The notes below the pieces were generated by a model that saw only the letters and a program-made list of their open reading frames with translations, was not told the DNA's origin and did no database searches. From Phycisphaeraceae bacterium (GTDB lineage Bacteria > Planctomycetota > Phycisphaerae > Phycisphaerales > Zrk34): a stretch of 64,000 nucleotides of DNA. Within the stretch, counting starts at the first letter, position 1. Each line of letters starts with the position of its first letter. Positions 678 through 54,346 of this stretch are shown piece after piece. A program made the position numbers and the translations under genes. The stretch covers positions 1 to 64,000 of the forward strand of contig JANQHD010000022.1 in assembly GCA_028282805.1 (NCBI GenBank), read 5' to 3'.

Positions 678-3600
678 TCAGTATCTATCCACACTCGCGC
701 ATGCCCCGTGGTCGGTCATGGTGTCGCGTTCGAGGCGGTTAACGACGGCGTCGCTGCCGTCTTGGACGGTCACGACGGCGGCGGAGCCGTTGGCTAAGAG
801 CTTGGGGGGGCCGACGAGGATGCAGCTGTCGGGCTGCTGGAGGATGCCGTCGACGCGGGCGGGGAGGGTGCCCTCGGCTTTCACGCTCAGCATGGTTTGC
901 AGCGTGACGATGCGGTGCGATTCGTGGACCTCGATGAACACGCGGGCGGTGCCGGGGCACTGGCGGATCATGTTGCGCAGCGATTCCAATTCCCCGTTCC
1001 ACACACGCGGCTTGCCGGCCGCGTCGGTGTCACGCAGGACGATGCGGACGCACTTGGTCAGCTGCTCGGGGGCCTCGGCGATGGGCATCACCTTGTCGAT
1101 CACGATCGACGGCTCCTCCCGCCGGCGGTCGACCTTGCCGGTGACGAAGACGACCGAGTCGGTGTGCACCAGGTGGGCGTGCTCGGCGAAGGTGCGGGGG
1201 AAGACGACGCCGTCGATCTCGCCGGTCTGGTCCTGGAGGGTGACCATGGCCATCTTCTCCTGCTTCTTGCGCGTCAGCGTGGGGCGGACGCGCGTAAACA
1301 AACCGGCGACGGTCACCTCGACGTCGGCGCGGACCTTGCGGATGTCGCGGATGGAGACGGTGGTGAACGTGTCGATGAGCGGGGCCACGTCGTCGAGGGG
1401 GTGGGAGGAGACGTGGAAGCCGAGCACTTTCTTTTCCTCGTCGCACTGGGTTTTGAGGTCCCAGGGGTCGACGGGGGGGAGGGATGGCTCATCTTCGATC
1501 TGCGATTGTCGATCGTCGATCGCAGATTCCTGGACGGCGCCGAAGAGGAAGTCGGCGGCGTTGCGGAGGTCGGCTTCCTGTGCGCCGCGGGAGATGGCGG
1601 TGTCGAGGGCGGCGACCATGGCGGCGCGCTTCTCGGTGGCGTGCAGGGAGTCGAACGCGCCGCACTTGATGAGGGCCTCGAGGCAGGCGCGGTTGACGGA
1701 CGAGGACGGCACGCGCTCGCAGAAGTTGAACAGCGAGGTGAACGGGCCGTCGGCCCGGCGGATGTCGATGATGGCGTCGACGGCCTTGCGCCCGACGCCC
1801 TTGACGGCGCCGAGGCCGAAGCGGATGTGGCCGTGGTTGGGGGTGCGCGGCTCGTCGTCGCCGTAAGCGACGGCGAAGTCGGTCAACGACAGGTTGATGT
1901 CGGGCGGGCGGACGTCGATGCCGAGCTGGCCGTCGGGCAGCAGGACGCGCCGGCAGTCTTCGATGTACTCGACGACCTTGTCGGTGTTGACCGATTCGTA
2001 GGTGAGCAGGGCCGCCATGTACTGCACGGGGAAGTAGGTTTTGAGGTAGGCGGTCTGGTAGGCGATGATGGCGTAGCCGGTGGAGTGGGACTTGTTGAAG
2101 CCGTAGCCGGCGAACTTGACGATGAGGTCGAACAGCTGGTTGGCCTGTTGGGCGTCGACGCCGTTGGACTCGGCACCGTCGACGAAGTCGGCGCGGGCGG
2201 CGTTGATCACGTCCTCTTTCTTTTTCGAGATCGCCTTGATGATGGTGTACGCTTTGCGGAGGGGGATGCCGCCGAGCTGGTTGAGGACCTGCATGACCTG
2301 TTCCTGGTAGACCATGATGCCGTAGGTCTCGGAGGTGATGCGGTCGACGATGGCGTTGACGCGGGGCACGTCGGTGCGTTCGTGCTTGCGGTCGTTGTAG
2401 TCGGGGATGAGGTCCATCGGCCCGGGGCGGTACAGGGCGTTGGCGGCGATGAGGTCCTCGAGGCGGTCGGGTTTCATGGCCATGAGCAGGTCGCGCATGC
2501 CGCCGGACTCGAACTGGAACACGCCCTTGGTGTCGCCGCGGCGGAACAGGTCGAGCACGTTCTGGTCGACGTAGGTCAGGCGGTCGAGGTCGAGGGGGTC
2601 GAGGTCGGAGGGATCCGGAGCGGCGCTGCGCTCTGCTCCGGCTTGGGTTTTAAGGCCGAACTCGCGCGGGGTGTCGGGGTTGGGGCCGGGGCCGAAGCCG
2701 CCGGTGATCGCGCGCCGCTGCGTGGGGCGGTCGAGGTCGCCGGTGATCAGCTTGCGGGCGCGCTGGACGATCGACAGCGTGCGCAGGCCGAGGTAGTCCA
2801 TCTTCAACAAACCGACCTTCTCACACGTCGGCCCGTCCCACTGCGTGATCACGTCGTCGGAGCCGGGCGCCTTGTACAGCGGCACGATGTGGTCGAGCGG
2901 CTCGGTCGCCAGCACCACGCCCGCCGCGTGCACCGACGCGTGGCGCGCCATGCCCTCGAGGCGGCGCGACGTGTCGATCAGCCGGCGCATCGTCGCGTCG
3001 CCGTCGTACTCCTTCTTCAGGTCCGGCTCCTTGGCCAGCGCCTCGTCGAGCGTGATGTTCAGCTGCTCGGGCACCAGCTTGGCGATGCGGTCGACCTCGG
3101 CCAGCGGGATGTCGAGCACGCGCCCCACGTCGCGCAGCGCGGCGCGGGCCTTGAGCGTCCCGAAGGTGATGATCTGCGCGACGTGGCCGTACTTGCGCCG
3201 GGTGTAGTCGATGACCTCGGCCCGCCCGTCCTGGCAGATGTCGATGTCGATGTCGGGGTACTCGGTGCGGTCGGGGTCGGTGAACCGTTCGAACAGCAGG
3301 CCGTAGTGCTCGGGGCAGGCGTTGGACAAGCCGAGGCAGAAGCCGACCATGGTGCCCACGCCCGAGCCGCGCGCGTTACAGGGGATGCCGTTGGCCCGCG
3401 CGTAATTCACGAAGTCCCACACGATCAAGAAGTACGCGCTGATCAGCTTGTCGGCCAGCACCTGGAGTTCGCGCTCCATGCGGGCGCGGATCTCGTCGGT
3501 CACGCCGCCGGGCCCGTAGCGCCAGACCGCGCCGGCCTCGGTGAGCAGGCGCAGCGCGCCGTCGCACTCGGCCTTGAGTTCCTCGGGTGACTCGGTGTCC

Positions 3601-6100: not shown

Positions 6101-7513
6101 TCATTTGCCCAACTGTTCGATGCGCCCGATCACCACGTCGCACAACCGGTGCAGGTTCGCTTGCCCGATCGCCAGCGGCGGCATCAGCACCACCACGTTG
6201 CCCAACGGCCGCACAATAATACCCGACGCCCGGCAACCGTCGGCCACCTCGTAACCCAATCGCCGCGACGGGTCGAACCCCGTCGCCCCGCGCTCGCCCG
6301 GCGGCACCAGCTCGATGCCGACCATCAAACCTTTCTGACGCACGTCGCCCACGTACGGGTACCGCCCCGCGTCGCGCAAAACGTTAAGCCGTTCGGCCAC
6401 CGCCGCCGCCTTTTCGTTGACGACGCTCAGCAGGTCGTTCTGTTCAAACAGGTCCAGCGACGCGTTCGCCGCCGCCGCCGCCAGCGGGTTGCCCGTGTAC
6501 GTGTGCCCGTGGTACAGCGTGCGGTGCTCGTCGAGCTCGCCGCAAAAAGCCTGCTCGATCTCATCGGTGCACAGCGTCGCCGCCAACGGCAGGTAACCGC
6601 CCGTGATCCCTTTGCCCAGGCACATGATGTCGGGCTCGACACTTTCGAGTTCGCAGGCAAACATCGCGCCCGTGCGCCCGAAGCCCGTCGCCACCTCGTC
6701 GGCGATCAGCAGCGTGTCGTGCTTCCGGCAAAGGTCCGCCACGCCGCGCAGGTAACCGTCGGGCTGCACGATGATGCCCGCCGCCCCCTGCACGATCGGC
6801 TCGACCACCACCGCCGCCACCCGCCCGTCGAGTTCGGTGAGCCAAGCATCGAGTGATTCGATCGCCGCATCGCGCACATGCTGCACATGTGCTTCATCTT
6901 CCAGCGCCCATCGGCGTGCCACACCGCACTCCGCAATCCGCAATCCGCATTCGTGAAACACGTCCGGCGACCCCGCCCGCTCCACGCGAAACACCAACGG
7001 GTCGAACGGCTCGTGAAACGTCGCGCTGTACCCCACGCTCATCGAACCCACCGTGTCGCCGTGGTACGCGCCCTCGAGCGCGACCAGCGTGTCGCGCCGC
7101 TGGCCCCGGTGGTACCAGTAGCCCACGGCCATCTTGAACGCGACCTCCGTCGCCGTCGCCCCCGCATCGGTGTAAAACACCTTGTTCAGCTCGCCGGGCG
7201 CCAACGCGCACAACCGCGCCGCCAGACGCGTGGCCGGCTCGTGCGTCATGCCCAGCATCGTGGTGTGCGCCACCTTGTCGAGCTGTTGCTTGACCGCTCG
7301 GTCGATATGCGGCACGCGGTGGCCGTGCACGTTGCACCACAGCGAGCTGACGCCGTCGAGGTAACGGTTGCCCGCCGCGTCGATCAGCCAGTCGCCCTCC
7401 GCCGCCTCGATGATCAACGGCTCCTTCTCGCGCCACTGCCGCATCGGCGTAAACGGGTGCCACACGTGCGCGTGGTCGAGCTGGGCTAATTGTTGACGTT
7501 GCGTTTCGTCCAT
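6101..7513 (-). CDS. bioA: Adenosylmethionine-8-amino-7-oxononanoate aminotransferase
   Basis: PLP-dependent class III aminotransferase of biotin synthesis, converting KAPA to DAPA with SAM as amino donor. It is about 470 residues. HVWHPFTPM and SLWCNVHGH near the N terminus are BioA-type substrate-site motifs. DEVATGFGRTG carries the PLP-contacting Asp, and the Schiff-base Lys lies in CLGKGITGGYLP near residue 297. I chose the start MDETQRQQ at 7513 because upstream residues look unrelated to the family; no strong SD is visible. The protein is about 40 residues longer than the E. coli enzyme. Part of the excess is an insertion near residues 187-205 (HECGLRIAECGVARR) encoded by a 7-bp-period array. 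No other biotin gene is nearby. Confidence 0.93.
   Translation of the reverse strand: MDETQRQQLAQLDHAHVWHPFTPMRQWREKEPLIIEAAEGDWLIDAAGNRYLDGVSSLWCNVHGHRVPHIDRAVKQQLDKVAHTTMLGMTHEPATRLAARLCALAPGELNKVFYTDAGATATEVAFKMAVGYWYHRGQRRDTLVALEGAYHGDTVGSMSVGYSATFHEPFDPLVFRVERAGSPDVFHECGLRIAECGVARRWALEDEAHVQHVRDAAIESLDAWLTELDGRVAAVVVEPIVQGAAGIIVQPDGYLRGVADLCRKHDTLLIADEVATGFGRTGAMFACELESVEPDIMCLGKGITGGYLPLAATLCTDEIEQAFCGELDEHRTLYHGHTYTGNPLAAAAANASLDLFEQNDLLSVVNEKAAAVAERLNVLRDAGRYPYVGDVRQKGLMVGIELVPPGERGATGFDPSRRLGYEVADGCRASGIIVRPLGNVVVLMPPLAIGQANLHRLCDVVIGRIEQLGK
6925..6952. repeat. Heptamer array inside bioA
   Basis: Four in-phase 7-base units, CGCACTC, CGCAATC, CGCAATC, CGCATTC, inside bioA. On the coding strand they give the peptide ECGLRIAECG-like stretch. 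The array lies in a surface-loop region between conserved BioA blocks and does not break the frame. Confidence 0.7.
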
Positions 7514-13827: not shown

Positions 13828-14812
13828 CTTGATGTTAACCGGCTGCGAGGATCGGCCGGGGGGGTCCAACCAAGACGGCGACGCGGCGGGGAATCTTTCC
13901 GAAAAAGACACCACGGGTCACAAAACCGGCCGCGCCCCCGACTTGCAACCGTTTGATTTTCGACGCTTGCAGATGGGCGTGCAAGTCGAGCTCAGCGTCT
14001 GGGCCGAATCGCAAGAAAAAGCCGAGAAAGCCGCCAAGGCCGCCTTCGCCGCGATCGGGCGCGTCGATCGGCTGATGAACCACTACAACCCCCGCAGCGA
14101 GCTGAGCCGGCTGTCCGACCACGCCGGCCAAGGCCCCATGCCGGTCAGCCCCGAGCTGATGGCCGTGCTGCGCCACGCCAAGGCGATGCACAAAAAAACC
14201 GGCGGCGCGTTCGACCCCACCGCCGCGCCGCTGTTCGACCTGTGGCAGACGGCGCGCAAGGCCCAGCGCAAGCCCCCCGCCGCCGCGATCGTCGATGCGC
14301 TGTCGCGCGTCGGCATGCAGCACGTCAAACTCGACGAATCGAAACAAACCGCCGAGCTGACACAACCCGGCATGCGCCTCGACCTCGGCGGCATCGCCAA
14401 GGGTTACGCCGCCGACCTCGCCGCCGACGCCTTCCGCGCCCACGGCGTCACCCGCTTCGCCATCACCGCCGGCGGCGACATGAAACTCGGCGCCCCCCCG
14501 CCCGACGCCGACGGCTGGGTCATCGACGTGCCCAACCGGCCGCCCATGACCCTGGCCAACACCGCCGTGTCGATCTCCGGCGACACCGCGCAGTTCGTCG
14601 TCATCGACGGCTGGCGCTACTCGCACGTCGTCGACCCCCGCACCGGCCAGGCCGTCACCAGCCGACAGATGGCCGTCGTCACCGCCCCCCGCGGCATCGA
14701 CTGCGACCCGCTCGCCACCGCCGGCTGCGTCATGCAACCGCCGCGCTGGCACGAACTGCTGGTTACCCTGAATCAAGTCGAGGGCAACGTCTGGGTCGCG
14801 CAAGACGAATAG
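13796..14812 (+). CDS. apbE: FAD:protein FMN transferase lipoprotein
   Basis: A 338-residue ApbE flavinyl transferase that attaches FMN to Thr or Ser of exported redox proteins such as Rnf or Nqr subunits (family knowledge). A short signal ends in the lipobox LTGC (MVRRSMLIVLILMLTGC). Landmarks are LMNHYNPRSELSRLS, LDLGGIAKGYAAD, FAITAGGDMKLGA, SISGDTAQF and HVVDPRTGQAV. ATG at 13796 is preferred because it supplies the twin Arg n-region, with AAGGG about 8 bases upstream. The gene is divergent from, and overlaps the start of, the SUMF1-domain gene. No flavinylation target lies in this window. The stop codon falls in a CCGCTCGCGG repeat. Confidence 0.92.
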   Translation: MVRRSMLIVLILMLTGCEDRPGGSNQDGDAAGNLSEKDTTGHKTGRAPDLQPFDFRRLQMGVQVELSVWAESQEKAEKAAKAAFAAIGRVDRLMNHYNPRSELSRLSDHAGQGPMPVSPELMAVLRHAKAMHKKTGGAFDPTAAPLFDLWQTARKAQRKPPAAAIVDALSRVGMQHVKLDESKQTAELTQPGMRLDLGGIAKGYAADLAADAFRAHGVTRFAITAGGDMKLGAPPPDADGWVIDVPNRPPMTLANTAVSISGDTAQFVVIDGWRYSHVVDPRTGQAVTSRQMAVVTAPRGIDCDPLATAGCVMQPPRWHELLVTLNQVEGNVWVAQDE

Positions 14813-14831
14813 CCGCTCGCGGCTTAGCGCC
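14811..14831. repeat. CCGCTCGCGGCTTAGCGC repeat, copy 1
   Basis: AGCCGCTCGCGGCT palindrome plus TAGCGCC, overlapping the apbE stop codon. A second CTTAGCGCC follows 15 bases later. Further copies: 15853-15873, 16303-16323, 54326-54346, and partial forms at 41084-41100 and 49170-49183. Confidence 0.8.
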
Positions 14832-14851
14832 GCAGTGACTTAGCGCCAAAC

Positions 14852-15825
14852 ATGCCCCACCACCACGCCACTACCCGCACCCGCCTCACCACCGCAACCG
14901 CGAGCGTGATCGCCGCCCTGTGCTTCGCCGCCACCGACCCGCACGCACCCGTACCGCAAGCGAAGGTCGATTCGATCGAGTTCGAAACCACCTGCCGATT
15001 ACCCGTGTACAAGCCGCGCCCCGAACACGAACCCGTCCGCCGGTTCGTCGAACCGAAACTCAAAACCGTGCCCGAGGGCATGCTAGTCGTCGGCGCGCTG
15101 GCGCTCGGCGCCGAACAGTTCGGCCTGACCGATACGCAAGCCGCCGAATTGAACCAAGCCCTCGTCGACACCTACCAGCACATCGGCAACGACCCCGCGT
15201 TCGCCGGCGTACCCACGGCGCTCGACCGCCGCCTCTCGCAAGACGCCCAACGCCCCGGCCACTACTTGCTCTACCGCCCCGCCGAGCTGCGCGACCCACA
15301 CCCGACCCTCGTCTTCCTGCACGGCTTCGGCGGCAACTTCCAGTTCTACACCTGGGCCCTGAAAACCGCCTTCCCCGACCACGTGATCCTCACCCCTTCG
15401 TGGGCATCAGCTGGCACACGGGCCAGGCGAAGCACCTCGACGAGATGCGCGCCGACGCCGAGCGACGCCTGAAAGTCAAACTCGACACGCCCCACCTCGT
15501 CGCCATCTCCGCCGCCGGCCCGGCCGGGTTCCGCCTCTACAACCAATCCCCCGACGCCTACCGCGGCTACGCCTGCCTCGCCTCGTCGCCGACCGCCCGG
15601 CAAGCTAGCACGCTGAACAAAGACCTGCGCATGCTCATGATCAACGGCACGATAGACCAACGGTACCCCGTCGAGCCCCTCCGCCGGCGCGCCCAACGCA
15701 TCCAGCGCCGCGTGCCGGGTTTGACCTTCAAAACCATCGAAGCCGACCACTTCATCCTGCTCACCCGCCGCGAGCAAACCTTCGAAACCATCCGCCGGTT
15801 CGTGACCCCCACCCCCACCGTATAA
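14852..15825 (+). pseudogene. Frameshifted secreted alpha/beta hydrolase
   Basis: Two overlapping frames together make one alpha/beta hydrolase of about 324 residues. The first frame gives a signal peptide (to about residue 27) and the oxyanion region PTLVFLHGFGGNFQF. The second frame, from about 15402, continues with GISWHTGQAKHLDEM, the likely nucleophile in VAISAAGPAG, the Asp in NGTIDQRYP and the His in EADHFILL. Adding one G to the TGGG at 15401-15404 restores the reading SW-GISW and one unbroken protein. It may be a true frameshift mutation or a sequencing error in a G run. All residues needed for a Ser-Asp-His triad remain, which argues for recent damage or error. Confidence 0.75.
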
Positions 15826-15852
15826 CCACACCGCCGCGCTCCAACAGGCCAA

Positions 15853-15873
15853 AAGCCGCTCGCGGCTTAGCGC
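15853..15873. repeat. CCGCTCGCGGCTTAGCGC repeat, copy 2
   Basis: AAGCCGCTCGCGGCTT palindrome followed by AGCGC, 27 bases after the stop of the broken hydrolase gene. Confidence 0.8.
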
Positions 15874-16002
15874 TGAAACACCCACCCCCGCCCCAATCCC
15901 ATCACCACCGCACACACACCACCGCCGCAACACCCCCCATTCCCCACGCCACATCACGGCGCGGCACGGCACGCTACAGCACACCACGCACGCTCGAAAA
16001 AA

Positions 16003-16027
16003 TATAATTTTTAGTCTAAAAACTATA
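16003..16027. repeat. AT-rich palindrome family, copy A
   Basis: Arms TATAATTTTTAG and CTAAAAACTATA flank a central T. One arm mismatch. It belongs to a five-copy family with consensus arm AT(A/C)GTTTWTAG around a single W. Confidence 0.8.
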
Positions 16028-16068
16028 AATACCGAACCGCACATCACGCACAGCACACCCACATCGCC

Positions 16069-16173
16069 ATCTCGCAATACACAACATGCGTCGCGCACAA
16101 CGCGTTTCGCAACACGCATCGCGCAATACACATCGTGCAACACGCGTCGCGCAACACACGTCGCGCAACGCAT
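16069..16173. repeat. Long degenerate heptamer array
   Basis: Fifteen consecutive 7-base units in one phase, roughly alternating AACACGC-like and GTCGCGC-like units (examples: AACATGC, GTCGCGC, AACACGC, ATCGCGC, AATACAC, ATCGTGC). The composite 14-base unit is clearest from 16111 to 16166. Confidence 0.75.
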
Positions 16174-16211
16174 ACCTCAAGCCGCACGCCGCGGTGTGTT
16201 GCCAAAATATG

Positions 16212-16234
16212 ATAGTTTTTAGTCTAAAAACTAT
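16212..16234. repeat. AT-rich palindrome family, copy B
   Basis: Perfect arms ATAGTTTTTAG and CTAAAAACTAT around a central T. Confidence 0.85.
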
Positions 16235-16302
16235 ATAGATTAGGGCCTTCCAACACGCCGAGGTGGCGGTGGCGGTCGCGCGTTGTTGTGGTCGTGCGCC
16301 CC

Positions 16303-16323
16303 AAGCCGCTCGCGGCTTAGCGC
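16303..16323. repeat. CCGCTCGCGGCTTAGCGC repeat, copy 3
   Basis: AAGCCGCTCGCGGCTT plus AGCGC, 17 bases downstream of the esterase stop codon on the opposite strand. Confidence 0.8.
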
Positions 16324-16339
16324 AAACGCGAACCCCCGC

Positions 16340-17224
16340 TCACCCGCCCTTCACGTTCAACCCCTGCCGCGCCAGCCACCGTTCGCACGCCTTCGGCCAC
16401 TCGGCGTGCGGCTCACCCGGCTTGCCGAGCCCGAAGCCGTGCCCGCCGTGGGCGTACAGGTGAAGCTCGGCCGCCACCCCTTTCTGCCGCAGCGCCTGGT
16501 AGAACGCGACGCTGTTGGCCGGGGGCACCGCCTTGTCTTCCCCGGCGTGCATCAAAAACGTCGGCGGCGTCTGCTCGGTCACCTGCAACTCGTTCGACAG
16601 CCGCCGCGCCAGCTCCGGGTCGAAGCCCTTGCCGATCAGGTTCGCCCGCGACCCGCGGTGCGTGTACGGCGCAGTGAACGAGATCACCGGGTAGCACAGC
16701 ACCATGAAGTCCGGCCGACAGCTCACGCGGTCGATCGGGTCCGCCGCGTCCTTCTCGCCGGCGTCGAAGTGCGTGCCCGTGGTCGACGCCAGGTGCCCGC
16801 CCGCGCTGAAACCGAGCACGCCCACGCGGTCGGGTTTGAGCCGCCACCGCTCGGCGTTGGCGCGCACCGTGCGGATCGCGCGCTGCGCATCGTGCATCGG
16901 CGCCGGGTGGCGGTAGCCGTGCCGGCCGAGCCTGTACTTCAGCACGAACGCCGTCACCCCCACGCCGTTGAGCCACTCGGCGACCCGCCTGCCCTCGTGG
17001 TCCATCGCCAGGTTCTGGTACCCCCCGCCCGGGAAGATGATCACCGCCGTGCCCGTGCGCAGCGCGTCGGGCGGCGCGTACATCGTGATCGTCGGCCGGT
17101 CGTGGTCCTCGTCGGCCTTCGCCCCCGGCGCGCCGTCCGGCCAGAGCGGCATCACCACCGGCTCGGCGACGCACACGCCCGTCAGAACCAGCACCAAACC
17201 CAGCGCGATCGTCGGTCGCCACAT
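16340..17224 (-). CDS. Secreted esterase, alpha/beta hydrolase fold
   Basis: A 294-residue carboxylesterase or acetylxylan-esterase-like protein with a signal peptide (MWRPTIALGLVLVLTGVCVA). IIFPGGGYQNLA is the oxyanion loop. GFSAGGHLAS (near residue 145) holds the nucleophile Ser, and the HGGHGFGLG region near the C terminus holds the catalytic His. ATG at 17224 is supported by GAGGTGG 6 bases upstream. Domain organisation resembles BD-FAE type deacetylases, which remove acyl groups from polysaccharides (family knowledge). It lies about 110 bases after an enolase-superfamily gene on the same strand, consistent with a carbohydrate cluster. Confidence 0.88.
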   Translation of the reverse strand: MWRPTIALGLVLVLTGVCVAEPVVMPLWPDGAPGAKADEDHDRPTITMYAPPDALRTGTAVIIFPGGGYQNLAMDHEGRRVAEWLNGVGVTAFVLKYRLGRHGYRHPAPMHDAQRAIRTVRANAERWRLKPDRVGVLGFSAGGHLASTTGTHFDAGEKDAADPIDRVSCRPDFMVLCYPVISFTAPYTHRGSRANLIGKGFDPELARRLSNELQVTEQTPPTFLMHAGEDKAVPPANSVAFYQALRQKGVAAELHLYAHGGHGFGLGKPGEPHAEWPKACERWLARQGLNVKGG

Positions 17225-17333
17225 CGTTCCACCTCGTTGGTTGAGCCTACCGGCCGGTGATTTGAACAAAACACGGCCACTGCAAATGACGCCGCCCAAC
17301 ACACCACCCGGCTCACCCGATGCCGCCGACCCG

Positions 17334-18554
17334 TCACGACCCGATCAGCTTCATGCCGAAGCCCGGCGCGCTCGACGGCGCCAGCCGGCCTTGCTTGTCG
17401 AGGTGGTAGTCGCCCCAGTCGATCCGGTCGCATTCACACGTCACCCCCTCGATCGTCAGCGTGTTGCCCAGCGCCGCGGCGAGGTGGGCGACGTAATACG
17501 TCTTAAGCTGCGAGCCCCACGCGTGCGGCGAGGCGAGCACGCCCCGGCGTTGCAGCTCGGGCATCAGCTTGCGCCAGGCCGTGAACCCGTGGCCGACGAT
17601 GTCGGTCAGGTACACATCCAGCAGCTCCTCGTCGATCAACCGCGACAGCAGCTTGTGGTCGGGGCGGTCTTCGCCATCTGCGAGATAGGTCTTCAGCTTC
17701 TGCTCGTTCAGCGCATCGCGCAGCACGCGGTAGTCGGCTTCGCTCTCGCGGAACGGCTCTTCGATCCAATGCAGCTTCACGTCACCGACACCGTCGATGA
17801 AGCGCACGATCTGCTTGGCGGTGAAGCCGTCGTTGCCATCGACGAGCAGCGCCACGTCGGGGTACGCCCGGGCGATCTGCTTGACGACCTCGATGTCACG
17901 GCGCAACCCCGCTTCCTTGGGCATCCATTTGTTGCCCCGGCCGATCTTGATCTTGAACTGGCGGTAGCCAAGCTCGTAATCCTGCTGACAGTTGGCCAGC
18001 ACCCGCTCGATGCCCGCGGGGTTGTCTTCGGGTTCGAGGTCGTCAAAGTAGATCATGCCGCTGTAGCACGGCGTGGGCGTCGGCGCCTTGCCACCGATCA
18101 GCTCGTAAACGGGTTTGCTCTCGATCACGCCCGCCAGGTCGTACAGCGCCAACTCGATCAGGCGCGGCGCGCCCGGCAGCAAGCCCCGCTCCGGCGTGAA
18201 CAGCTCGGTGACCTTCTTGCCCTTGATCTGCTCAACGAGCCGCCGGCGGGCGGCGTGGTCCTTGATCCAGCCGCACTCCACCGCCCACCCGGTTGCGCCC
18301 CGGTCGGTGATCAACGTCACGACGTACACGTTCGGCCCACGGCCGTGCACCCCGCGCCGAGCGTTCTTGCCGACGTGGCGCGGCCAGCGCAGCTGTGCGC
18401 GACCAAACGTCGCGCCCGCTATGCGGTGGTCGGCCAACGCGCCGCCGGCCTTCGGCTTTGCATGCCCCGCGCGACCCAACACCGCCGACGCCCCGAACGC
18501 CGCGCCCGCCGCCATGAAGCCGCGTCGCGTCAAACCGATCCGCCGTCGTCTCAT
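17334..18554 (-). CDS. Tat-exported enolase-superfamily (mandelate racemase/MLE) protein
   Basis: About 406 residues. LTRRGFMAAGAAFGASA is a Tat-type signal. The barrel has FKIKIGRG (KxK acid/base), metal ligands in LLVDGND, HWIEEPF and YLADGEDR, and SPHAWGSQLK near the end. It belongs to the mandelate racemase/muconate lactonising branch, whose members dehydrate or epimerise acid sugars (family knowledge). The exact reaction is not readable. Its ATG overlaps the stop of the Gfo/Idh/MocA gene as ATGA (18551-18554), so the two are translationally coupled. Export of an enolase-family enzyme fits the exported sugar oxidoreductase beside it. Confidence 0.88.
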   Translation of the reverse strand: MRRRRIGLTRRGFMAAGAAFGASAVLGRAGHAKPKAGGALADHRIAGATFGRAQLRWPRHVGKNARRGVHGRGPNVYVVTLITDRGATGWAVECGWIKDHAARRRLVEQIKGKKVTELFTPERGLLPGAPRLIELALYDLAGVIESKPVYELIGGKAPTPTPCYSGMIYFDDLEPEDNPAGIERVLANCQQDYELGYRQFKIKIGRGNKWMPKEAGLRRDIEVVKQIARAYPDVALLVDGNDGFTAKQIVRFIDGVGDVKLHWIEEPFRESEADYRVLRDALNEQKLKTYLADGEDRPDHKLLSRLIDEELLDVYLTDIVGHGFTAWRKLMPELQRRGVLASPHAWGSQLKTYYVAHLAAALGNTLTIEGVTCECDRIDWGDYHLDKQGRLAPSSAPGFGMKLIGS

Positions 18555-21469: not shown

Positions 21470-21542
21470 TACCCCCTAGGGGAGTCGAACCCCTGTTCTC
21501 GGACTGAGAATCCGATGTCCTAGGCCACTAGACGAAGGGGGC
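21470..21542 (-). tRNA. tRNA-Glu (anticodon CUC)
   Basis: 73 bases on the minus strand. Acceptor GCCCCCT pairs with AGGGGGT, discriminator A. Anticodon arm TCGGA-TTCTCAG-TCCGA gives anticodon CUC, and the T arm is AGGGG-TTCGACT-CCCCT. CCA is not encoded. It reads GAG codons. A second Glu tRNA with UUC lies at 37541-37615. Confidence 0.96.
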
Positions 21543-21553
21543 GGGGTGTTGTC

Positions 21554-21588
21554 TAAGCTCGAAATTCGAAACTCGAATGACGAAAACG
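21554..21588. repeat. Heptamer array upstream of tRNA-Glu(CUC)
   Basis: Five in-phase 7-base units: TAAGCTC, GAAATTC, GAAACTC, GAATGAC, GAAAACG. They occupy the promoter side of the tRNA gene. Confidence 0.65.
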
Positions 21589-23937: not shown

Positions 23938-23952
23938 GGCCTATCTCGAATT

Positions 23953-23975
23953 ATAGTTTATAGACTATAAACGAT
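23953..23975. repeat. AT-rich palindrome family, copy C
   Basis: Arms ATAGTTTATAG and CTATAAACGAT around a central A. One mismatch, at the outer A/G position, gives the copy a direction. Confidence 0.82.
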
Positions 23976-24023
23976 AAGATGGCCCGGGCGTGCGGGTCGG
24001 GTATTTGTTGTGCAAGACGCGCT

Positions 24024-24049
24024 AGCCGGCACCATACCTGGTGCCGGCT
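24024..24049. repeat. REP-like element, single hairpin copy
   Basis: AGCCGGCACCA-TACC-TGGTGCCGGCT. Only the first of the two hairpins seen at 7572-7625 is present. Confidence 0.82.
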
Positions 24050-24064
24050 GTCCCGCGAGTGTTT

Positions 24065-24087
24065 ATAGTTTTTAGACTAAAAACGAT
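24065..24087. repeat. AT-rich palindrome family, copy D
   Basis: Arms ATAGTTTTTAG and CTAAAAACGAT around a central A. Same orientation as copy C. Confidence 0.82.
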
Positions 24088-24304
24088 CAATGATCCGGGC
24101 GCTTTGCCTTTCTATTTCGTATTCGTATCCAAGTGGCCGCAAATCGCTGGTGCACCGGATCGTGCCGAAGCCAAAAATGAAACCACGCAACATCGTGTCG
24201 CAAGATGCTCCAGGTCAAGCCGACCGTCAATACCCGTGCGACCGTTACAAACCTCACCACCGTCAGAACGTGTCATTCACCGCGTATTGACCGGCCGTTT
24301 CGAG

Positions 24305-40350: not shown

Positions 40351-41103
<753 letters not shown>

Positions 41104-41152
41104 GGGTCGGGTTCCGGGGGCCGGGTTCTGGGTTCCCGGGCTCGGGTTCCGA
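41104..41152. repeat. Heptamer array left of four-helix-bundle gene
   Basis: Seven in-phase 7-base units: GGGTCGG, GTTCCGG, GGGCCGG, GTTCTGG, GTTCCCG, GGCTCGG, GTTCCGA. A similar array in the opposite orientation lies at 41644-41678. Confidence 0.75.
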
Positions 41153-41156
41153 ACGA

Positions 41157-41213
41157 TAGCCGGCACCATACTTGGTGCCGGTCCCAGACCGGCGGCAGGT
41201 ATGCCGCCGGCTA
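41157..41213. repeat. REP-like double hairpin, copy 3
   Basis: AGCCGGCACCA-TACT-TGGTGCCGGT, then ACCGGCGGCA-GGTA-TGCCGCCGGCT. It differs from copy 1 only in a few spacer and loop positions. Confidence 0.85.
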
Positions 41214-41232
41214 GCGCGTCCCGAATCGCTTT

Positions 41233-41255
41233 ATCGTTTATAGTCTATAAACTAT
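41233..41255. repeat. AT-rich palindrome family, copy E
   Basis: Arms ATCGTTTATAG and CTATAAACTAT around a central T. It has the mismatch seen in copies C and D, but on the left, so it is in the reverse orientation. Confidence 0.82.
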
Positions 41256-41270
41256 CATCTGCAATGCGTT

Positions 41271-41630
41271 CTACGCTTTCAATGATTCGATGAGTTTGTT
41301 GAGCATCTGGCCGACGCGCTGAGCGGTTTGCCAGAGGGGTTCAACGGCTTGCCGATCGACCAGCTTCAACCGCACACAGAGCGTGAGTTGGGTTTCCAGT
41401 TCCATCAGTGATCCTCGCGCCACATAGAGGAACTGGACGTACTCGTTGCGGTGCTGTCGGCCGTAGCCCTCGGCGATGTTCGATGGCAACGACACCGCCG
41501 ACCGGCGCATCTGCGACCGCAATCCGTATCGTTCCTCATCCGACAGTTGCCGACTGACCCGGTAAACCTCTTCCACAAGGTCCATCGCCATCCGCCAGAC
41601 TTCCAATTGTCGATAGCTCATCCCCGTCAT
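41271..41630 (-). CDS. Four-helix-bundle protein (S23 / avd-like family)
   Basis: A 119-residue protein of the four-helix-bundle family found as 23S rRNA intervening-sequence proteins and, in related form, as the Avd accessory of diversity-generating retroelements. Signatures are YRQLEVWRMAMDLV near the N terminus, RRSAVSLPSNIAEGYGR (near residue 45) and FLYVARGSLMELETQL. No reverse transcriptase or template repeat is nearby, so a DGR role has no support. The gene lies between two inverted heptamer arrays, with a REP-like element and an AT-rich palindrome on one side. It may have arrived as a small unit. Confidence 0.87.
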   Translation of the reverse strand: MTGMSYRQLEVWRMAMDLVEEVYRVSRQLSDEERYGLRSQMRRSAVSLPSNIAEGYGRQHRNEYVQFLYVARGSLMELETQLTLCVRLKLVDRQAVEPLWQTAQRVGQMLNKLIESLKA

Positions 41631-41643
41631 GCCTTGCCTTTCC

Positions 41644-41678
41644 CGGAACCCGACCCCCGGAACCCGGCACCCGTTATC
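41644..41678. repeat. Heptamer array right of four-helix-bundle gene
   Basis: Five in-phase units: CGGAACC, CGACCCC, CGGAACC, CGGCACC, CGTTATC. Reverse complements match the left array (GGTTCCG type), so the pair forms inverted flanks about 490 bases apart. Confidence 0.7.
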
Positions 41679-54325: not shown

Positions 54326-54346
54326 AAGCCGCTTGCGGCTCAGCGC
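54326..54346. repeat. CCGCTCGCGGCTTAGCGC repeat, copy 4
   Basis: AAGCCGCTTGCGGCT plus CAGCGC. It lies between the two minus-strand genes, 4 bases from the PEP-CTERM stop codon. Confidence 0.75.

Follow-up and report, generated by a model that had tools for sequence, protein, structure and literature searches.

The array at 16069-16173 lies between convergent genes, whose ends are at 15825 and 16340, in the 64-kb stretch of DNA that was analysed as a whole (the window). The first-pass annotation had ascribed to it a strict 7-bp period. The 7-nt register does run through all 105 bases without a slip, and identity at lag 7 is 0.469 (z 3.7; 1 of 3000 dinucleotide shuffles as high). Identity at lag 14 exceeds this, reaching 0.692 (z 6.5; none of 3000 dinucleotide shuffles as high), and lag 14 at this position is the top lag anywhere in the 64 kb when 105-base windows are compared. 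TRF calls a period of 14 with 6.3 copies. The true unit is 14 bp, composed of two unlike heptads. Written in purine and pyrimidine letters, the array falls into blocks of 6 and 8 alternating, and its purine-pyrimidine alternation (0.82) is the window maximum. A coding repeat was ruled out, since the 14-bp units break the reading frame and the site is between convergent genes. As RNA, self-complementarity is confined to the minus strand, where the fold reaches -58.8 kcal/mol (z -3.4 against shuffles) with 13 of 41 pairs being G.U; the plus strand folds with -29.8 kcal/mol (z -0.7). Rfam covariance models matched nothing in 13900-17400 (threshold E<=1). A search for an inverted partner arm returned none, only self-folding, and no IVP (S23) gene lies within the array. 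Just past gene ends, a further repeat, AGCCGCTCGCGGCTTAGC, occurs at 14811-14828, 15854-15871, 16304-16321 and 54327-54344; it is hairpin-like and has no T run.

The same 7-bp period had been recognized at five other loci (Table 1), and it holds at each of them: all lie above shuffled sequence at lag 7 (0 to 8 of 3000 as high), with the weakest excess at 21554 and 41104. One correction concerns the arrays at 1491 and 6925, which are not intergenic and lie within conserved protein genes. The aminotransferase region that carries the latter is itself poorly conserved and aligns badly to solved relatives. Short hairpins also make up Rickettsia palindromic elements and other MITE-like repeats, some of which have inserted in frame within genes, like the array at 1491 in dnaE; those elements form dispersed families of one sequence, whereas the arrays described here differ from locus to locus. 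The only Rfam-type RNA matches in the 64-kb window are two tRNAs.

Table 1. Period-7 arrays, A+T-rich palindromes and the IVP gene of the window
Feature	Position	Strand	Remarks
Period-7 array	1491-1532		near-palindromic; in frame inside dnaE (DNA polymerase III alpha), between HHH and OB domains (a linker)
Period-7 array, CCGCAAT type	6925-6952		in frame inside bioA-type aminotransferase gene
A+T-rich palindrome, TATAATTTTTAGTCTAAAAACTATA type	16002-16026		left bracket of the 16069 array
Array at 16069	16069-16173	-	15 heptads (a 14-bp unit repeated 7.5 times); intergenic, contains no gene
A+T-rich palindrome	16212-16236		right bracket of the 16069 array
Degenerate period-7 array	21554-21588		between tRNA (21470-21542) and acyltransferase gene
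A+T palindrome	23952-23976		
A+T palindrome	24064-24088		
Period-7 array, GGGTTCC type	41104-41152		cassette arm 3' of IVP gene
A+T palindrome	41233-41255		inside the IVP cassette of the window
IVP gene	41271-41630	-	119 aa, four-helix bundle; PF05635 23S_rRNA_IVP, E 4.9e-38; enclosed by both arms
Period-7 array, GGAACCC type	41644-41678		inverted partner arm, 5' of IVP gene

Two of these arrays, 41104-41152 and 41644-41678, are reverse complements of each other around one IVP gene. The earlier statement that the arrays share a period with no shared sequence fails for this pair. The cassette has both the S23/IVP open reading frame and the complementary, stem-forming termini of IVS/IVP elements, and the arms pair with each other when it is folded whole (41104-41678, z -6.4). 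It is not inserted into a 23S rRNA helix; its neighbours are pgl (40351-41103) and another protein gene. Members of the IVP protein family form a homopentameric ring (PMC4990558), and the solved relatives 2gsc (XCC0516) and 2rld have five chains each.

The comparison with shuffled sequence suggested in the first-pass annotation was widened to 884 kb of this genome, surveyed in stretches, of which 155 kb are intergenic, and the excess at lag 7 was confirmed: there are 54 intergenic arrays against 2.3 in shuffled sequence. Lags 14, 21 and 28 give 44, 25 and 13 intergenic arrays (against 2.4, 1.6 and 1.7 respectively), lag 8 forms a smaller peak (19 against 2.6), and every other lag gives at most 17. 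As in heptanucleotide tandem repeats of the STRR kind, head-to-tail 7-nt units occur above chance and mainly between genes. The unit sequences are many and include GGGTTCC, AATCCGG, CGATTGC, CTTGAGT, AATGACC, ATTCGCC and CCCCGGC, as well as TGCCGAT from one further contig of the genome. An inverted partner within 700 bp accompanies 45% of 75 period-7/8 arrays, compared to 5% of controls; for roughly one array in two in this genome, no partner was detectable. That all of them are IVP cassettes was ruled out, as the genome has 9 IVP genes and a projected total of about 300 arrays.

The A+T-rich sequences on either side of the 16069 array belong to a family of perfect palindromes, ATMGTTTWTAGWCTAWAAACKAT, which are intergenic and often occur in clusters of two or three at a spacing of roughly 110-350 bp. 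The core is present in 50 copies in the genome, compared to 0 of a reversed control, and the palindrome arms covary (45 concordant, 4 hybrid). The family is absent from 8 genomes of the same taxonomic family, one of them of the same genus. G+C-rich REP-like inverted repeats (GCCGGCACCATACCTGGTGCCGG, CCGGCGGCATACCTGCCGCCGG) lie between or beside A+T palindromes at 24020-24055 and 41156-41220, and at loci L060 and L066-L069. Clusters of the A+T palindrome are found near arrays more often than expected (4 of 14 against 0.55, P 0.0015). This association, the bracketing of the 16069 array by two palindromes, its extreme purine-pyrimidine alternation and its failure to fit the heptad grammar of IVP arms described below (p 0.98) are consistent with an array unrelated to IVP elements, that is, a low-complexity alternating purine-pyrimidine stretch tied to this species-specific palindrome family. 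We regard such an origin as a genuine possibility, albeit one that falls short of probable. Against it, the array keeps a 7-nt register in a genome with strong over-representation of period 7, other arrays adjacent to palindromes are ordinary heptads such as GGGCTTG, CCCCGGC and ATTCGCC, and a palindrome (41233) is also part of the IVP cassette. Two A+T palindromes also bracket another long degenerate array of period 7, at 51684-51905 of contig C31 (z 5.1 at lag 7). A sequence shared between it and the 16069 array was considered and rejected, their similarity not being significant.

The arrangement seen at 41104-41678 is general for IVP genes. Inverted arrays, nearly all of period 7 or 8, flank 8 of the 9 IVP genes in this genome and 23 of 28 testable IVP loci elsewhere in the class. 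When named genomes were scanned, 80 IVP loci from about 20 phyla were obtained, one of them archaeal; 79 were testable, and 60 of these have inverted flanks. The best period is 7 in 51 of the 60 and 8 in the remaining 9. On contigs labelled viral, 26 of 34 IVP loci have inverted flanks. The loci were chosen as the top hits of a single query pattern and are not a random IVP sample. Shifted controls gave 1 of 288 for the scan across phyla and, in a second such control, 0 of 48. Among the other small genes of this genome, 7 of 209 (3.3%) pass the same flank threshold, and none of the 7 has heptad arrays. The unit sequence differs at nearly every IVP locus. The genome's PF13366 (GxxExxY) genes, three in number (L132-L134), likewise have inverted flanks, that of L132 being clearly a period-8 array, CACAGAGGCACAGAGACACAGAG; these loci are possibly a sister element type.

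Arm length has a median of 30 bp, and the distance to the domain ends is about 37 bp. Upstream of the IVP gene, the 5' arm is rich in G at 79 loci and rich in C at 9. Its start falls at the stop codon of a co-directional open reading frame (150 codons or more) in 58 of 91 loci, compared to 11 of 352 in the control, and in 76 of the 91 a co-directional reading frame starts at most 90 bp after the 3' arm. The typical cassette therefore lies inside an operon, and the cassette of our window, placed between convergent genes, is an exception. The units follow a weak grammar, approximately [AC]G[GT]GATY with one G nearly fixed (1.94 against 1.42 +/- 0.05 for permuted columns), which is weaker yet present in held-out arms (t 2.6). 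In view of this weak grammar, the selected binding geometry considered in the first-pass annotation may play a part, but the 16069 array does not fit the grammar.

Two junctions allow a comparison between genomes. Between atpH and atpA, a cassette is present in this genome and in one relative (G008), while in most other relatives the gap is about 4-105 bp and holds no cassette; these genomes are too diverged to provide a near-identical pair of filled and empty sites. An IVP cassette also occupies the nuoC-nuoD junction of eight alphaproteobacteria (L175, L179, L181, L209, L224, L228, L229 and L243), with flanking DNA that is about 80-87% identical among them. The IVP proteins from this junction cluster on the tree (2 label changes compared to 7.7 when shuffled). 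The heptads differ among the species and each arm pair is still complementary, so that the arrays appear to turn over fast, both arms changing in concert.

That complementarity persists despite the change of sequence could also be expected if the arms were RNA stems under selection, either as RNase III substrates of the IVS type or as hairpins that terminate or insulate transcripts, with the period of 7 a secondary feature. The co-directional position in operons and the restriction of the fold of the 16069 array, with its 13 G.U pairs, to the minus strand would agree with this, and the 28-bp stem of the Coxiella IVS, an element with an S23/IVP reading frame, is cut by RNase III (PMC4990558). 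If pairing in RNA were what maintained the arms, G.U should outnumber A.C on the coding strand. It does not: the 91 arm pairs have 98 G.U and 103 A.C, which leaves RNA-level selection in the arms unsupported. Moreover, selection for a stem alone needs no repeat of 7. We consider RNA stems an unlikely explanation overall, one that nevertheless deserves attention; the absence of a G.U excess leans towards a DNA-level process and counsels caution against a simple RNA-stem account.

A link between arrays and IVP genes is also seen at the level of whole genomes. In seven genomes without IVP there is 1 lag-7 array in 728 kb, compared to 60 in 800 kb of seven IVP-bearing genomes of the same class, a comparison in which kinship is not accounted for and several of the IVP-positive stretches come from contigs known to carry an IVP gene, with the IVP loci within the stretches masked. 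Lags that are not multiples of 7 show a much smaller difference, and the contrast recurs within two families (f20 and f11). One genome of f20, G064, is a counterexample: it has five IVP genes, yet the 80 kb sampled from it are free of arrays. Generic polymerase slippage with 7-nt units set by the polymerase footprint and IVP genes as bystanders (the hypothesis of Mrazek 2007), which could draw on the single arrays of this genome and on heptanucleotides ranking first among repeats of this sort in most prokaryote genomes (reported by Mrazek 2007, according to PMC4679880 and PMC4692102), is improbable, given that the IVP-free genomes have almost no lag-7 arrays and that slippage alone makes no inverted pairs centred on one gene family.

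Parts of this picture have been described before. The 23S rRNA IVS with an S23/IVP reading frame (Coxiella, Leptospira, alphaproteobacteria) resembles the present cassettes in its PF05635 gene, its size of about 430 nt and its complementary ends of about 28 bp; the cassettes examined in this analysis have protein genes as neighbours (at pgl, atpH-atpA and nuoC-nuoD) and are not in rRNA helices, both their arms are tandem arrays and many copies are gene-less. In the Coxiella IVS, tandem heptamers (GACAGAT) precede the reading frame in a number that varies among strains (PMC4990558). The cyanobacterial STRR and the GGGAATC or GGGGA(C/T)T arrays of Xanthomonas and Nostoc are also intergenic head-to-tail heptads, and Xanthomonas has 70-75 inverted heptamer pairs of GGGAATC (PMC4692102); these reports describe a single unit sequence, or a small number, for each genome, in contrast to the many found here, and mention no link to IVP (PMC4692102). 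The TAACTGA repeats of Beggiatoaceae are again intergenic heptads near gene boundaries, but the consulted part of PMC4679880 gives a single unit, mostly upstream of start codons, and describes no inverted arms around a gene. The first-pass annotation knew of no account of period-7 arrays of multiple sequences. This is too broad, given that the dominance of heptads, the inverted Xanthomonas pairs, the IVS stems and the Coxiella IVS heptamers are published; for a general association of inverted heptad arrays with IVP genes in many phyla, no account was found in the open-access literature (most subscription journals lie outside it).

Taken together, we think it probable that the arms, or the gene-less remnants, of IVS-type hairpin insertion elements make up most of the well-formed period-7 arrays in this genome, and that these arise by copying in heptad register from any seed. 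Such an element would have a pair of tandem arrays in inverted orientation, each of about 30 bp and built from units of 7 nt or sometimes 8 nt; complete copies would enclose the gene for a four-helix-bundle IVP (S23) protein and would typically lie between co-directional genes at the upstream stop codon. Slippage together with fold-back copying from arm to arm, in heptad register, would expand whatever seed is present, and might depend on the element or on its pentameric IVP protein. A copying process of this kind would fix period and inversion and leave the sequence free. The architecture, its spread over phyla, the near-absence of arrays from IVP-free genomes and the change of unit at one site with complementary arms were observed directly; the copying process, and any part that the IVP protein may have in it, is a step we infer. 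This supports the first-pass idea of a single process at work on many seeds, for which hairpin elements of the IVP/IVS type are the candidate: the period is shared, the sequence is locus-specific, and both go with one element type that includes IVP cassettes and gene-less hairpins.

With gene, partner arm and fit to the grammar all absent, the 16069 array is not a complete cassette. More likely than not, by a small margin, the same process produced it in a degenerate form that lacks the gene; this is less certain than the general rule. Its presence in the same genome, its intergenic position, its 7-nt register and its bracketing by palindromes, as at 51684-51905 of contig C31, argue for membership, while the lack of an IVP gene and of a partner arm, the 14-bp unit and the misfit to the grammar argue against it.

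A more specific and decidedly speculative version, which we would not expect to hold, makes the IVP pentamer a molecular ruler: each protomer would accommodate 7 nt of nucleic acid, either single-stranded or in a hairpin, so that copying on the element would re-prime in sevens and create new inverted heptads from any seed at the insertion site. If this were true, the heptanucleotide repeats of prokaryotes would largely be footprints of IVP elements. The dominance of heptads among long simple repeats in prokaryotes has been an open question since 2007, with only the polymerase-footprint guess to account for it, and the tie to IVP gives heptads a concrete and testable cause in one widespread protein family of unknown function. 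The S23/IVP protein gains a likely substrate, and the nuoC-nuoD junction offers a natural system in which to track array turnover. IVP/IVS elements become a general class of operon-inserting hairpins, beyond an rRNA oddity, and the presence of hairpin elements, often with IVP genes, in many bacterial phyla may account for the abundance of seven-base repeats in bacteria.
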